Source: a virus. Taken from it: 36,932 nt of DNA. The number at the start of each line of letters is the position of its first letter. Position 1 is the first letter of the stretch. Under the pieces are notes generated by a model. That model was not told where the DNA came from. It worked only from the letters and a program-made list of their open reading frames with translations, and did not search any database. Below are positions 3,247 through 14,840 of this stretch, in pieces. The DNA is taken from positions 1-36,932 of the IMG/VR virus record IMGVR_UViG_3300035703_000225. One strand, written 5' to 3'. Made by a program: the position numbers and the translations under genes.

Positions 3247-3987
3247 CTAATCCCGATACCCCTGCATCCTGTCCAGCGCCCCACGGATAGCGTCCCGCAG
3301 CTGACGCCTATGCTCTCCCTTCTCGGCCCAGCCGAAGCGGCGCAGCACCTCGCTCAGGTCCACGCCACCGAGGCAGACCATGTCCACCACGGCCCGCACC
3401 GTGATCCTTGCCCGGCCGTTGCCCCGGTCCATGTGGCGCCGCACGTCCATCGCCACCCCGTCACCGATGCGCGCCTGCAGCTCGGCAAGCTGGCGGCCGC
3501 GATCCATGAAGCTGTCGATGAAATGGCCCGACCCGCCACCCTCACGCCCGGCTTCAAGGCTCGCGCATTTCATCGCGCTGCCGTCCCGCCATTCGACCAG
3601 GGCAGCGTAGAGCTCGGCCATCGCCACCTGCGCCGGGCTGTAGGGTGGCACGAAGGGCGCGTCGGGCTTCCGCGCCTCATGCCGCTGGCGGGCCTGGGCG
3701 ACGGCGGCGGCGAGGGGCGAGAGGGCACGCCAGTGCATCCCTTCGACCCGGCGCATCCCGCCCGATGTGACGGTGAAGTTCGGCACCTGCGCCTGCGGCC
3801 CGCGTGCCGGGGCGATCGGCGCGGCCCGCATCGCCTCTGGCGGGGTGGCATGGTCCAGCATCGCCCGCAGCGCCTTGCCCTCGGCGAGGGTGCGCGCCGC
3901 ACCGGCCACGGGATCAAGCCTGAGCGAGGCGGTCTGGAAGGCCTGGCCGACCTTAACCCGGTCAAATCGCTTGGAATGATCGGTCAT
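3247..3987 (-). CDS. Hypothetical protein in the position of a late regulator (Q/ArpU-like position)
   Basis: This 246-residue protein has no domain I can name. The N-terminal half is low in secondary-structure signal (Ala/Pro-rich); the C-terminal part (about 195-246) is a predicted helical, HTH-like region with VVDMVCLGGVDLSEVLRRFG. It is the last gene before the late promoter/hairpin, the place occupied by lambda Q or ArpU/RinA-type late activators in other phages, so a role in late transcription is a positional inference. The ATG at 3987 was chosen over 4020 because GAAAGGG lies about 8 bases upstream, whereas 4020 has its GAAGG directly touching the start. Confidence 0.7.
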   Translation of the reverse strand: MTDHSKRFDRVKVGQAFQTASLRLDPVAGAARTLAEGKALRAMLDHATPPEAMRAAPIAPARGPQAQVPNFTVTSGGMRRVEGMHWRALSPLAAAVAQARQRHEARKPDAPFVPPYSPAQVAMAELYAALVEWRDGSAMKCASLEAGREGGGSGHFIDSFMDRGRQLAELQARIGDGVAMDVRRHMDRGNGRARITVRAVVDMVCLGGVDLSEVLRRFGWAEKGEHRRQLRDAIRGALDRMQGYRD

Positions 3988-4062
3988 GCCGTGGCCCTTT
4001 CGCCAGATGTTGTGGCCCATCCTTCATTCAACCCAATGGGTTGATATCCCTCTTTTTTCAAA

Positions 4063-4410
4063 GGGAGGTTGGGGAGGTTGGAAAATAGGAAAAGGGAGGT
4101 TGAAAGGGATGATCTGGAAAAGGGAAGATGACGGCATATCAAGGACTTGCCGGTAAAAAGGGGAGGTTGGGGAGCTTGGGGAGGATGTTTTCTTGCGTCA
4201 TGTGAGAGGACGCCTTTCCCCACATCACCATCATCCATCCCCCAGACCCCGATGAAGACGTGCGCACGTGTATGACGCGCGATCAAGCTCCCCAAGCTCC
4301 CCAACCTCCCTGAATGCTGGTCAAGCCCATGATCCGCAACACTTTCCCCCGAACCCCGATCAGGGCCGGAACCTCCCCGAAAGGGCGGGTTCAACCTCCC
4401 TGACCTCCCC
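4063..4410. repeat. Mirrored iteron cluster, candidate replication origin
   Basis: The gene-free stretch 4021-4444 holds twelve copies of a 9-10 base unit, GGGGAGGTTG or GGGGAGCTTG. Six lie in plus orientation (starts about 4063, 4071, 4094, 4160, 4169, 4178) and six inverted (4284, 4293, 4302, 4370, 4392, 4402). The two halves are mirror images about position 4235.5: the 23-base arms 4161-4183 and 4288-4310 are perfect reverse complements, and the outer units match their mirror positions within one base. Short A-rich runs lie between the left units. The region directly follows the D5 helicase gene. Iterons beside an SF3 helicase gene recall the P4 alpha/origin arrangement. Confidence 0.7.
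4258..4269. promoter_or_regulatory. Perfect 12-bp palindrome inside the iteron region
   Basis: ACGTGCGCACGT is a perfect palindrome between the two mirrored iteron halves. It could be a dimeric protein-binding site or initiation element. No function can be assigned from sequence alone. Confidence 0.5.
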
Positions 4411-4444
4411 GAAAGCGTCCTGCCGTGGGTGCGGGAGAGGTGCA

Positions 4445-6361
4445 TCAGAACTCACCGCTGTAGTCTGGGCTGGGCGGGTCGTCCTGCGGAATGGCCCCGA
4501 CGGTCAGGGCCCGACCCCGTGTGTCCTTCGGTGCGGCGTCCCAATCCTTGCGGAAGAAGGCGGTGAAGCGCAGGCCGTCGTAGAACATGCGGCCGCCGCT
4601 TTTCACCTGGGTGAACTTCTGCCCGGTGCGGCGCGATCGCCAGCGGCGGGCGTGGTCGGCCATGGCCTTGGCGATGGTGCGGTCGCGGTACTGGCCTTCG
4701 CCCCGCGCGGTCAGCCAGTAGTTGAAGGCGTTGACAAGCTCGGCCGCGCCGATGCGGTCGCCGTCCTCGCCGGTGATCTCGCAGGCCTCATCGAGGAAGG
4801 CGCCATAGGGGTCGCTTTCCTCGCGCAGGGCAGAGGTCGCGTTCCTGACCTCGGACGGTTCCATCAGCCCGCCTTCGAGGTAGGCAAGGCACCCCTCGAC
4901 CAGCCAGTTCAGGATGCCAGAGGCTTCGGCGAAGAGCTCGGCATCGATCTCCTGTTTCGGCCGTCTTTGGGCCTCGGGGATCTGCACCGGGAATTCCACG
5001 ATCTTGACCCGGCGCCAGATGCCGTCATCGGTGCCCCGGAAGACCGGCTTGTGGTTCCCGCTGACGAAGGTCTTCTGGTAGGTGGTGACCTCGACGAAGT
5101 CGCCGAAAAGGCCGCGGATCAGCATCGGCTCGCCGCCGGTCATTTCCTTGATGAAGGATTCCTGCCACTGGATGCCCTCGGCGGGCTCCGACGTGGTGCC
5201 AAGCCGCGCGCCGATCAGCTGCATGAGGTCCGGAGTGGCGTCGCTGCCCGATCGCCGGTTCGTGCCGGTCAGGCTTTCGATCTTCACCTTGGCGGCGTAG
5301 TCGTCCATCATCCGGTGCAGAAGGTCCATCAGGACCGACTTGCCGTTCGCGCCGTCGCCATAAAGGAAGAAGATCACCTGCTCGATCACGGCCAGCATGG
5401 ACAGGCCGAAGGCGCGCTGCAGGTAGCCCTGCACCTCGGGCCGGGGCTGGATCAGGTTCAGGAAGGCCTGAAACGAAGGGCAGCGCGCGTCGGGGTCATA
5501 GGCCACGTTCATGCGCTTGGTGATCAGGTCGGCCGGATCATGCGGGCGGAACTCCACCTCGGCGCGCCGGATCCTGCCGTGCAGGACCACCCTGAAATGC
5601 AGGGTGCCGTTCAGAAGGTTGACCTTCAGCGGGTCGGCGTCCAGCTGGTCGACGGTGGCCGACAGCATGACCCCGCCTTCGTTCAGCATGTTGTTCATCG
5701 TCGAGGTGTTGCCGGCCTGCTTTGCGTGCCGCAGGCGCTGCGCGACGCGGTCCTGGGCGCGGGCCAGGACTTCCTCGATCTCGGCCTTCTCGACCCGCAG
5801 GGCGTCAATCTCCGCACTGGCCTCGGGCGTGCGGTCCTTGGCGGGCGTGTCCAGCAGCTCAGCAAGGCGGGTCGCGATGGCGCGGGCGCGCTTGTGCAGG
5901 TCGGATTCGTTCCGGGGCCGCAGGAACACCGTCTCGCGGCTGATCCAGTCCGACATGCAGTGGACGAGCTTGCGCGTGGCAACGCCGCCTGGCGCGTCCT
6001 TCTTGACCGGCGGGTCGAACTTCCACCGGGTGGTGTCCCAGATGTGCCAGCCGATGTTCGGCACGAAACGCGCGGCGGTGCCGTAGTAGATCGCGAACCG
6101 CTTGCCGTTGCCCACGTCGTGCATGGGAAGCTCGGAGGCGCGCTCGACGCGGCCCCAGTCGATCCCGTCGCCATCGGTCGGACCGTCCGGCGGCGGCAGG
6201 TCGCCCCCGTGATCAAGGTCGGACGGGTCAGGTCCGGGATCACCGGCATGGCGGTCATCGGGATCCGCGTGGCGCGCTTCGGCCGGGCGCGCTTCGGCGG
6301 GGCCGGGCGCATCGGCAGGCAGGATTCCGGCGAAGGGGTCGGGCTTCTTTTTCCGGGTCAT
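4445..6361 (-). CDS. D5-type primase-helicase, SF3 helicase (phage/plasmid replication initiator family)
   Basis: This 638-residue protein is the replicative helicase candidate. Residues 1-70 are a charged, Pro/Asp-rich disordered leader; 80-320 resemble the D5_N region with a coiled-coil part near 180-215. The SF3 ATPase follows: Walker A GDGANGKS at 335-342, a B-motif region ARLGTTSEP at 385-393, and the sensor/Arg-finger stretch FVSGNHKPVFRGTDDGIWRR at 432-451. A winged-helix-like C-terminus ends the protein. No archaeo-eukaryotic primase domain or TOPRIM motif is visible at the N-terminus, so priming may depend on the host. Start ATG 6361 overlaps the previous stop (ATGA). It is followed directly by the iteron cluster. 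Confidence 0.9.
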   Translation of the reverse strand: MTRKKKPDPFAGILPADAPGPAEARPAEARHADPDDRHAGDPGPDPSDLDHGGDLPPPDGPTDGDGIDWGRVERASELPMHDVGNGKRFAIYYGTAARFVPNIGWHIWDTTRWKFDPPVKKDAPGGVATRKLVHCMSDWISRETVFLRPRNESDLHKRARAIATRLAELLDTPAKDRTPEASAEIDALRVEKAEIEEVLARAQDRVAQRLRHAKQAGNTSTMNNMLNEGGVMLSATVDQLDADPLKVNLLNGTLHFRVVLHGRIRRAEVEFRPHDPADLITKRMNVAYDPDARCPSFQAFLNLIQPRPEVQGYLQRAFGLSMLAVIEQVIFFLYGDGANGKSVLMDLLHRMMDDYAAKVKIESLTGTNRRSGSDATPDLMQLIGARLGTTSEPAEGIQWQESFIKEMTGGEPMLIRGLFGDFVEVTTYQKTFVSGNHKPVFRGTDDGIWRRVKIVEFPVQIPEAQRRPKQEIDAELFAEASGILNWLVEGCLAYLEGGLMEPSEVRNATSALREESDPYGAFLDEACEITGEDGDRIGAAELVNAFNYWLTARGEGQYRDRTIAKAMADHARRWRSRRTGQKFTQVKSGGRMFYDGLRFTAFFRKDWDAAPKDTRGRALTVGAIPQDDPPSPDYSGEF

Positions 6362-6771
6362 GCCGCAGCGTCCTTTGCCGGTTGCGCGAAGGCCAGGAAG
6401 GCAGCGCGGTCTTCCGGGGCAAGGCTGTTCCAGATCTCGACCATCGCGCGCTTGCGGGCGTTGATCGCCAGGATCATCTGGCCGCGCGCCAGGCGTCTCA
6501 GGCAGGCCGCCAGCATTGCCGCGACCTGGCTGCCCGGCGCGCAATCGGCCCACCAGTCCGCCTCGGACTGCAGCATGTGGCTGAAGGGCGCGAGCGTCAG
6601 CTCGTCGGGGGCGACCAGATCGAGGAAGGCATCGGCCACGGCCACGGCGGCCTCAGGGTTCCGCTCATGCACCGCCATCAGGGCGCGCAGGCAGACCATC
6701 GCCTCTTCCCGCGCGACGAAGGCATCGAGGTCGATCGGCGGCGGGGGCGTGTCGCGGGCGGCGTCGGTCAT
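6358..6771 (-). CDS. Hypothetical early protein, helical
   Basis: This 137-residue, mostly helical, acidic protein begins MTDAARDTPPPPIDLDAF and has no motif I recognise. Both ends overlap their neighbours by ATGA, so it is translated with the D5 helicase that follows and with the double-HTH protein before it. A helper role in replication is possible only by position. Confidence 0.75.
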   Translation of the reverse strand: MTDAARDTPPPPIDLDAFVAREEAMVCLRALMAVHERNPEAAVAVADAFLDLVAPDELTLAPFSHMLQSEADWWADCAPGSQVAAMLAACLRRLARGQMILAINARKRAMVEIWNSLAPEDRAAFLAFAQPAKDAAA

Positions 6772-8280: not shown

Positions 8281-8657
8281 GACGCCTTCCCCCACTGATA
8301 TCCCCGCAGCACCTCGGCCATCGGCTCGCCGCTTTCGCTCAGATCGGCGTCGCGGACGGCGGTCAGCGTGGTCTGCACATGGCTTGCCCCGCAGCGCGCG
8401 GCGCGGGCGATGGCGGCAACCGACAGCCCGGCAGAGCGGTCCTGTCGCTCGACCTCGGCCAGCGCGGCGGCCCTGACCGTCTCCATGATCGCCATGTTTT
8501 CCAACGCGCTGGCCAGCTGCCGCGCCTGGGCGGGCGTGAACTGCGGGCGAACGAAGCCCTGCGCATCGCAGATGGTCGAGGCCACGATCAGCGACCGCGC
8601 CAGGTCCTGCACCGTCTCGGCCTTGTAATGGTAGCGGATGGTCGGGGCGTCGGTCAT
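8277..8657 (-). CDS. Hypothetical protein with possible HTH
   Basis: This 126-residue protein begins MTDAPTIRYHYKAETVQ. Residues about 77-100 (AGLSVAAIARAARCGASHVQ) look like a helix-turn-helix, so DNA binding is possible. ATGA overlaps at both ends place it in the early operon between the ParB-fold protein and the DUF6378-like protein. Confidence 0.7.
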   Translation of the reverse strand: MTDAPTIRYHYKAETVQDLARSLIVASTICDAQGFVRPQFTPAQARQLASALENMAIMETVRAAALAEVERQDRSAGLSVAAIARAARCGASHVQTTLTAVRDADLSESGEPMAEVLRGYQWGKAS

Positions 8658-9472
8658 GCGGCAGCCCCCGCCCTTGCGATCATCATCCGCAGCGCCTCGC
8701 GTGCCCGCACGGCCTGCGGCACCGATTTATCGAGGCTGGCCTGCGCGTCCTCGATGACCTTGAAGGGATTCCGCATTTCCAGCGCGCGGACAAGATGGTC
8801 CCGGGGCGGGACATAGGCGGCCGCGACCGCATTGATCCAGGGGCGCAGCAGGAAGTCCGAATAGCAGACGGCACGGTCCAGCGCCGGGACCGCGCGCAGG
8901 GCGGCCAGCGCGGCGGTGATCGCCCGATCCTGTCCCGCCTCGACCAGCGACCGGATCAGCCCGATCGCGTAGATCTCGCCCGGCTTCTTCAGCGCAGACG
9001 AGGCATTGGACCGCATCAGCCGGCACCCGGCGGCGCTGACGGCCGCATCGGCCCTGACGGCCCAGTCGTCACCGGCCGAGAACGCGGCCTTGAAGATGTG
9101 GAACACGCTGACCCGGATAGACTGGCTGTTGACCCAGGCAAAGGCGCGGGACTGTTCCTCGATCCCGACCTGGACGACCATGGCGGGAACCTCCGCAATG
9201 CCGCAAAGAGCGGCAGCGTGGACCCGGTGCTGCCCGTCGATCACCGCAAACAACCCGCCCATGACCGGCGCGACCAGGACCGGCGAAAACCGGCTCCACT
9301 GGAAATTGGCCGCGATCTTCTCGATTGCCTTCCAGTTCCCCGCCAGCAAAGGGCGCTGGTAATCGTCATCGATCACCAGCTTGTCGACCGCCAGCCATTG
9401 CAGCATCGGCGCGGGGCCGGGGTTCGGCACGACCTGCGCGCGCCCGTCGATGTGGATCCCGCGATGCGTCAT
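8654..9472 (-). CDS. ParB/sulfiredoxin-fold protein
   Basis: This 272-residue protein has the ParB N-terminal (ParB/Srx) signature: a basic/hydrophobic run LAVDKLVIDDDYQRPL at about 27-42, SPVLVAPV near 63-70, then FAVIDGQHRVHAA at 75-87, where IDGQHR is the nucleotide-binding box. The C-terminal 150 residues are helical. Stand-alone proteins of this fold occur in many phages and need not segregate DNA; no ParA partner is present. It could act as a CTP/ATP-dependent DNA-binding factor. It overlaps both neighbours by ATGA. Confidence 0.82.
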   Translation of the reverse strand: MTHRGIHIDGRAQVVPNPGPAPMLQWLAVDKLVIDDDYQRPLLAGNWKAIEKIAANFQWSRFSPVLVAPVMGGLFAVIDGQHRVHAAALCGIAEVPAMVVQVGIEEQSRAFAWVNSQSIRVSVFHIFKAAFSAGDDWAVRADAAVSAAGCRLMRSNASSALKKPGEIYAIGLIRSLVEAGQDRAITAALAALRAVPALDRAVCYSDFLLRPWINAVAAAYVPPRDHLVRALEMRNPFKVIEDAQASLDKSVPQAVRAREALRMMIARAGAAA

Positions 9473-13649: not shown

Positions 13650-14840
13650 ATGACCGCTCACGACCCAAAGGTATTTGACCCCCTGTTTCTCGCGGCAATC
13701 ACCGCTCCGGCGGAACGGCTGCGCGCGATCTTCCGCCAGCTGGCCCCGGCCTTCGCGCGCCGCAGCTCGGTCGCAGTGCTGGAAACCGTCCTGATCGAGG
13801 CGGGCAAGAACGGGACAATCTTCCGGCTGACCGACCTCGACATGCAGATCACCGTCACGGCCGACGACCTGACCTGCGCCGCACCGTTCAGGGCCTGCGT
13901 CCCCTTCGGGCTTTTGCGCAGCGTCGCCGCCACCTTCGACGGGACGATCCGCATCAGCCTCACGAAGGCTGACAGGAAGGACACGCCTGACCGGCTGACC
14001 CTTGCCGCCGATGACGGCTCATCCGCGACGATCAACCTTCTCTGCCCGCCCGAGGACTTCCCGGAATGGGTCGGCCCCGAGGACGGCTGGACCGAGACCG
14101 AGACGACCCCGGCCCAGCTGCGCCGCATGTTCGCCCTCTCGCGCCCCTGCATTTCGACCGAGGAAACCCGCTACTACCTGAACGGCGTCTACCTCTGCCA
14201 GAAGCCGGGCGGCGACACGCTGCGCGCCGTGGCGACGGACGGGCACCGCATGGCGGTGATCGACGGGCCGATACCTGCAGCCGCGACCATCAGCGCGATC
14301 CTGCCCACCGACCTTGTCGGCGCGATCCTGGCGACGCTCGACCCGAAGGCAAACGAACCCGTGACGCTGGCCCTGACCAGCATCCGTGCTCGCATCATTG
14401 CCGGGCCGGTCAGGATCGACGCCAAGCTGATCGACGGCACCTTCCCGGACTACACGAAGGTGATCCCCACGGCCGACCCGCGCCTGTCGATCACGATGAC
14501 AGCCACCGCCCTGCGCCGCCTGATGCCGTTTTTCACCGCCTCCGTCTGCGCCGTGAAATTCAGCGACGGCTGGGCCAGCACCGGAGACCGCGAAAGCGGA
14601 ACCGCGCGCGTGCCGGTGAAGATGACTGCCTTGATAGACGGTCAGTCACTGGACATGAAGGTACCTGGCATCGTCCGAACCACAACCTACGGCTTCAACC
14701 TGCGCTACCTGGTCGACCAGGCGCGCCTGACGCCCACCTTCCGCATGGACGTTGCCTCCCCCTCAGATCCCGCGCGCATCCACGGCGAAGACCCGGACGC
14801 GATGTGGATGATCATGCCGATGTGGGGGTGTGACCCATGA
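13650..14840 (+). CDS. dnaN: DNA polymerase III beta subunit-like sliding clamp
   Basis: This 396-residue protein has the three-domain layout and signature motifs of the bacterial beta clamp, the ring that tethers DNA polymerase III to DNA. Visible motifs are ETRYYLNGVYL (172-182), ATDGHRMAV (195-203), IDGTFPDYTKVIP (261-273), GFNLRYL (348-354) and the C-terminal IMPM (388-391), which corresponds to the partner-binding pocket; five extra residues WGCDP follow it. The N-terminal domain is the least conserved. AGGAG precedes the ATG. No polymerase is encoded here, so the clamp probably recruits host polymerase III or another clamp-binding enzyme to phage DNA. Confidence 0.92.
   Translation: MTAHDPKVFDPLFLAAITAPAERLRAIFRQLAPAFARRSSVAVLETVLIEAGKNGTIFRLTDLDMQITVTADDLTCAAPFRACVPFGLLRSVAATFDGTIRISLTKADRKDTPDRLTLAADDGSSATINLLCPPEDFPEWVGPEDGWTETETTPAQLRRMFALSRPCISTEETRYYLNGVYLCQKPGGDTLRAVATDGHRMAVIDGPIPAAATISAILPTDLVGAILATLDPKANEPVTLALTSIRARIIAGPVRIDAKLIDGTFPDYTKVIPTADPRLSITMTATALRRLMPFFTASVCAVKFSDGWASTGDRESGTARVPVKMTALIDGQSLDMKVPGIVRTTTYGFNLRYLVDQARLTPTFRMDVASPSDPARIHGEDPDAMWMIMPMWGCDP

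Follow-up and report, generated by a model that had tools for sequence, protein, structure and literature searches.

A mirrored twelve-iteron array beside a D5/SF3 helicase gene as a probable phage replication origin

Directly 3' of its D5/SF3 helicase gene, a tailed-phage record carries twelve copies of a 9-bp unit arranged in mirror symmetry. Does this array mark the place where the phage starts its replication, and, if so, does it represent a new type of origin? The whole stretch of DNA analysed, 36,932 bp with terminase, portal, capsid, and tail genes, is referred to below as the window. Judged from sequence comparisons, the region is very probably the lytic replication origin, with its units presumably bound by the C-terminal winged helix of the neighbouring D5/SF3 helicase.

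Layout of the array and its chance level

The units, all of the GGGAGGTTG type, are arranged as 2+1+3 on one side of an axis at 4235.5 and as 3+1+2 on the other (Table 1). Eleven of the twelve have 0-1 mismatches to GGGAGGTTG, and the unit at 4401-4409 has two. The six-against-six symmetry described in the original prediction was recovered: the inner arms (4161-4183 and 4288-4310, 23 bp each) are 100% complementary, the inner six units and the two singles occupy exact mirror positions, and the doublets mirror each other within 1 bp. The perfect palindrome reported within the core is also present. As a whole it is not a plain 9-bp array; it is a mirrored 2+1+3 arrangement with fixed steps of 22-23 bp and 67 bp. 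No exact copy of GGGAGGTTG occurs in the record outside the array, which holds six, and of the 16 copies that differ from it at no more than one position, 11 lie within the array. A 153-aa ORF (3984-4445, -) overlaps the array region; no family match was found for it and it is interrupted by stops in the closest relative, so the region was treated as non-coding.

Table 1. Features of the proposed origin and its surroundings (positions in the window unless stated otherwise)
Feature	Position	Strand	Remark
Proposed replication origin, 424 bp	4021-4444	.	helicase stop to start of hypothetical gene 3247-4020 (-)
Iteron 1, distal doublet	4063-4071	+	GGGAGGTTG
Iteron 2, distal doublet	4072-4080	+	GGGAGGTTG
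Iteron 3, distal single	4094-4102	+	GGGAGGTTG
Iteron 4, distal inner triplet	4161-4169	+	GGGAGGTTG
Iteron 5, distal inner triplet	4170-4178	+	GGGAGCTTG
Iteron 6, distal inner triplet	4179-4187	+	GGGAGGATG
Iteron 7, proximal inner triplet	4284-4292	-	GGGAGCTTG
Iteron 8, proximal inner triplet	4293-4301	-	GGGAGCTTG
Iteron 9, proximal inner triplet	4302-4310	-	GGGAGGTTG
Iteron 10, proximal single	4369-4377	-	GGGAGGTTC
Iteron 11, proximal doublet	4392-4400	-	GGGAGGTTG
Iteron 12, proximal doublet	4401-4409	-	GGGAGGTCA
Core between inner triplets, 96 bp	4188-4283	.	presumed opening region
Alternating purine/pyrimidine tract, 17 nt	4258-4274	.	with palindrome ACGTGCGCACGT (4258-4269)
IHF-like site, distal 67-bp step	4137-4149	+	TATCAAGGACTTG; full consensus match, putative binding site
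IHF-like site, proximal step	4322-4334	-	GATCATGGGCTTG; two mismatches
Second full IHF consensus match, outside distal doublet	4034-4046	-	TATCAACCCATTG
G-box in core	4240-4250	+	CCCCAGACCCC (GGGGTNNGGGG on helicase strand)
G-box in proximal step	4347-4357	+	CCCCGAACCCC
Degenerate inverted G-box copy, just past helicase stop	4425-4436	-	family form CCCCGCACCCC
D5/SF3 helicase gene, proposed initiator	4445-6553	-	likely start 6361; Pfam D5_N 7.5e-23
C-terminal winged-helix domain of helicase, proposed iteron reader	4535-4810	-	residues 582-673 of 702-aa ORF
BPP-1 mirrored doublets	1108-1211 of fetched locus		between endonuclease gene and bbp28

In a de novo mirror search for strand-segregated 9-mers, the window scored 12 units. 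Fifteen shuffles of its downstream region gave a mean of 0.9 and a maximum of 4, and among 40 shuffled versions of the 430-bp region alone the highest score was 8. With a 12-unit template (doublet, single, triplet, and their mirror image) the window scored 101 of 108; the corresponding null, 134 shuffles with one per locus, had a mean of 64.4 and a maximum of 73. Over the 36.9-kb record the template scan returned one clear match, the next best place scoring 75.

Conservation among helicase relatives and alternative readings

Helicase relatives (160) were fetched from viral contigs and bacterial genomes, annotated phages were added, and near duplicates were removed, leaving 131 scorable loci, mostly of Rhodobacterales phages and prophages. 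The same layout was found at the same spot 3' of the helicase in 98 of the 131, above all 134 shuffles; about a quarter of the relatives were without the exact 12-unit layout. A held-out set was drawn later from loci that had played no part in noticing the pattern, with helicase identity of at least 45% (46-84% in the set), and 10 of its 15 members scored at least 80, most with the same spacings. The repeats, which on the original prediction should accompany the same helicase in related phages, do so at most loci of both sets. Spacings were near-constant (mostly 29-32 for doublet-single and 66-68 for single-triplet, with a core of about 60-110), while the unit words differed by lineage: GGGAGGAT, GGGAAGGTA, GGGACGAC, GGGC[CT]TGA, CGGCCCGAA, GGGGCAGA, and GGGCCGAAA. 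Such concerted change of twelve copies at near-constant distances is expected if a DNA-binding protein contacts every copy. No report of a Rhodobacterales-phage layout of this kind was found in the open-licence literature. At Rhizobium loci with more distant helicases, other repeats (TCTGACAGT / CTGATAGTT) were seen 3' of the helicase, at roughly 9-12-bp steps and in a different layout.

In the AlphaFold model of the helicase (mean pLDDT 84.7), the C-terminus is modelled with high confidence as a winged helix, with helices at 539-552 and 560-573 plus a beta wing at 584-595 (model positions; 64 has to be added to obtain positions in the 702-aa ORF). A fold search with this model led to the ASFV C962R PrimPol, a D5-type helicase whose structure has been solved both as a hexamer and as a dodecamer; a search of the PDB by sequence matched nothing but the ATPase portion of ASFV C962R. 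Covariation of the repeats with the helicase C-terminus, as anticipated earlier, was seen between nearest neighbours but not as a strong global trend. The unit distance to the nearest neighbour was 0.154 by C-terminus vs. 0.214 by ATPase domain (p=0.002), random pairs being 0.379 apart, and the global correlation of unit and C-terminus over all pairs was weak (Mantel tests; rho 0.20, partial 0.13). The computations show how the units are arranged, that the arrangement is kept while the unit words drift, that it stays with the helicase gene, and that a winged helix is predicted. Recognition of the origin by the helicase, as originally predicted, appears well supported by this comparative evidence.

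Residue 623 of the helicase, at the start of the recognition helix, was compared with unit position 4. K, R, or S went with A in 34 of 34 cases and G, Q, or T with C or T in 31 of 34 (Fisher 5e-16). A one-residue recognition code based on this position, chosen post hoc, was correct for 3 of 9 held-out loci and was dropped as clade structure.

In the window and in several relatives, HNH, TerS, and TerL genes directly follow, and repeats together with an IHF site recall lambda cosB. The array could be a packaging site of the cos/cosB type, at which the small terminase subunit would bind IHF-folded repeats and the DNA would be cut nearby; the RcapNL record places a 26-nt 3' cohesive overhang mid-way in the 58-nt distal spacer of its array. 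We regard this reading as very unlikely. The array does not travel with the terminase genes in the manner of a cos site: three phages with the HNH-TerS-TerL-portal block of the window, but with another replication module and no D5 helicase, have no array (best scores 69-74, in the null range), whereas the Phaeobacter plasmid pP88_h, a phage-plasmid with a gpA-type terminase, has kept it beside the helicase (score 86). No such TerS is present in the flank at 40 of 81 array loci, and the element lies 3' of the helicase whichever gene comes next. Where a TerS homologue is present (41 loci), TerS was a poorer predictor of the unit than the helicase C-terminus (unit distance 0.281 vs. 0.197, p=0.005), and at these same loci the ATPase domain predicted the unit as well as the C-terminus did (0.199 vs. 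0.197). RcapNL itself is listed as circularly permuted (PMC8601537), and its annotated overhang is either an annotation slip or a sign of packaging termini inside the origin.

Stem-loop origins have been proposed 3' of SF3 initiator genes for pRN1 and Bordetella phage BIP-1 (PMC4234260), and the region studied here, taken as single-stranded DNA, folds strongly (z -5.8). That it acts as one large stem-loop and not via iterons is nevertheless highly improbable. The mirror array by itself accounts for the foldability, the fold being strong because the repeats are mirrored, and a stem-loop needs neither a tandem 9-bp word in each arm nor twelve copies that change together at fixed steps.

Least of all do we expect a partition site for a phage ParB-like protein or an operator array for autoregulation of the helicase operon. 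A ParB-like protein is indeed encoded in the window (8654-9472, -), but it is without a relative in most array phages searched, e.g., Pan4, RcapNL, Pthi1, and Nsp-JY21, and the array is located downstream of the operon. The promoter/terminator scan gave no match, and the Rfam scan was negative. The ParB-like protein is common to only few phages, and two array-bearing phage-plasmids have partition genes of their own. Phage-plasmids were also considered as proof of autonomous replication of the region and rejected as such, as they carry, besides partition genes, an HTH protein that is a possible plasmid initiator. The window further encodes a homologue of the DNA polymerase III beta subunit (sliding clamp) at 13650-14840 (+).

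Core, IHF-like sites, and a proposed mechanism

According to the sequence comparison, three elements of the anatomy are new: two IHF-like sites that mirror each other in position, GGGGTNNGGGG boxes, and, within the core, an alternating tract that is conserved. The alternating purine/pyrimidine tract has a family mean of 15 nt vs. 6.4 in shuffled cores. The AT content of the core is only slightly raised (0.450 vs. 0.366 for the loci); it has a CpG-rich alternating tract instead of the AT-rich region that separates the iteron sets in SaPI/PICI origins. The distal step is AT-rich (0.547 vs. 0.366).

Full matches to the IHF consensus occur only twice in the record, at 4137-4149 and 4034-4046, and the weaker site at 4322-4334 is the exact positional mirror image of the former. 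Of 88 family members, 35 have the IHF-like motif NATCANNNNNTTR in the proximal step and 15 have it in the distal step, with approximately 0.6 each expected from background, and its offset within the steps was nearly always identical. The full match at 4034-4046 (-) adjoins a stretch resembling the palindrome AACCCATTGGGTT. The boxes at 4240-4250 and 4347-4357 are the sole exact copies in the record; in the relaxed form GGGG-N1-4-GGGG, the box occurs in the core of 53 and in the proximal step of 74 of the 88 family members.

From these features we infer the following course of initiation. Through its C-terminal winged-helix domain, the helicase would bind the 9-bp units, one subunit per unit, with six sites (2+1+3) offered on each side. 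A protein of the IHF or HU type would bend each 67-bp step and bring the outer three units beside the inner three. Two helicase rings would then form around the core in head-to-head orientation, and the unit counts would fit two opposed hexamers. Within the core, the flexible tract of alternating purines and pyrimidines would be the place of opening; the phage primase (encoded as a separate gene in several relatives) would prime after this opening, and two forks would depart in opposite directions. Compared with the helicase side, GC skew, suggested earlier as a check, was raised beyond the array in 71 of 84 loci. This would fit divergent forks but may reflect gene content; along the entire window the skew was irregular.

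A stricter version is offered tentatively and may well prove wrong. The array would be a counted scaffold in which every subunit of two opposed SF3 hexamers has its own site, six on each side, the outer three being folded onto the inner three by the mirrored IHF sites. Selection would fix the geometry, while the word would drift jointly in the twelve sites and the helicase, giving rise to many mutually incompatible but architecturally identical origins.

For the question of how SF3/D5 initiator helicases are loaded as two rings, the loci collected here provide about a hundred putative origins of near-identical geometry and different words, each beside its own helicase. This natural series yields testable predictions on the C-terminal domain, the 67-bp step, the units, and the IHF-like sites. 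The array could also be used as a sequence signature for locating origins in Rhodobacterales phages and phage-plasmids.

Comparison with known helicase-iteron origins

The original prediction had been compared with P4 only. It had overlooked the 2+1+3 grouping of the units, the IHF-like sites and their mirrored positions, and the conservation of the core. P4 alpha is an SF3 helicase whose winged-helix domain binds origin repeats (PMC4234260). The phage studied here shares the SF3 helicase and the winged-helix domain, whereas P4 alpha fuses primase and helicase. In pRN1 and BIP-1, too, the region follows the 3' end of a gene for an SF3 initiator that has a C-terminal winged helix, but it has been proposed to act as a stem-loop. 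In BPP-1, the sister of BIP-1, we found mirrored 9-bp doublets GTTTGCCTC, 73 nt apart, around CATACGTGTACATG. These form a partial array only; they would also fit iterons and may be the real origin of the group for which a stem-loop was proposed. An archaeal virus, Methanoculleus virus, has short mirrored repeats (GGGGCATATAGG, GGGCATGA) downstream of its D5 helicase (4360-4660 of the fetched locus), again as a partial array only and possibly the same kind of origin. Listeria phage PSA had no mirrored array in the de novo mirror test.

Two annotated phage origins are closer. The record of Streptococcus phage Sfi21 describes, 3' of a putative primase, an 'origin of replication, 302 bp non-coding region, phage inhibitory sequence', in which mirrored TTTAGTTAC repeats surround an AT-rich core. 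It resembles the present array in the mirrored repeats around a core and in the position 3' of a D5-type primase/helicase, and differs from it in having fewer units, an 8-bp inner doublet, an AT-rich core, and no 12-unit layout. Lactobacillus phage A2, with a helicase of the same family, has a rep_origin annotated right after the primase/helicase (3317-3826 of the fetched locus), where mirrored ACGGGAGGAT units lie around a core with TATATATATA and ATATATACGTA. Besides the position 3' of a D5-type primase/helicase, the likeness extends to the unit, ACGGGAGGAT being close to the word of many relatives studied here, and to the alternating TATATA/ATACGTA core. The A2 origin has fewer units, steps of 12/64 and 8/56/12, an AT-rich core, and no 12-unit layout.

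The idea of a new origin type is not supported in that form, as opposed iteron sets 3' of a helicase are known from SaPI/PICI and the annotated origins of A2 and Sfi21 are alike; the array would be a new variant of these helicase-iteron origins. In SaPI/PICI elements the origin follows the initiator gene on its 3' side, and an AT-rich region separates its two iteron sets (PMC6092414). In the Rep-ori system (Ubeda et al. via PMC7581432; PMC6092414), the C-terminal domain of the initiator reads the iterons, and two hexamers have been proposed. The array in the window likewise lies directly 3' of the helicase initiator gene, with two iteron sets flanking a core. It is distinguished by the 2+1+3 mirror with fixed steps, the 9-bp period, the IHF-like sites, and the GGGGTNNGGGG boxes, as well as by the CpG-rich rather than AT-rich core. 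It also belongs to a phage with terminase, portal, capsid, and tail genes and not to a satellite island, so that it would work like a PICI origin without a PICI. The array would link SaPI/PICI origins with ordinary phages.
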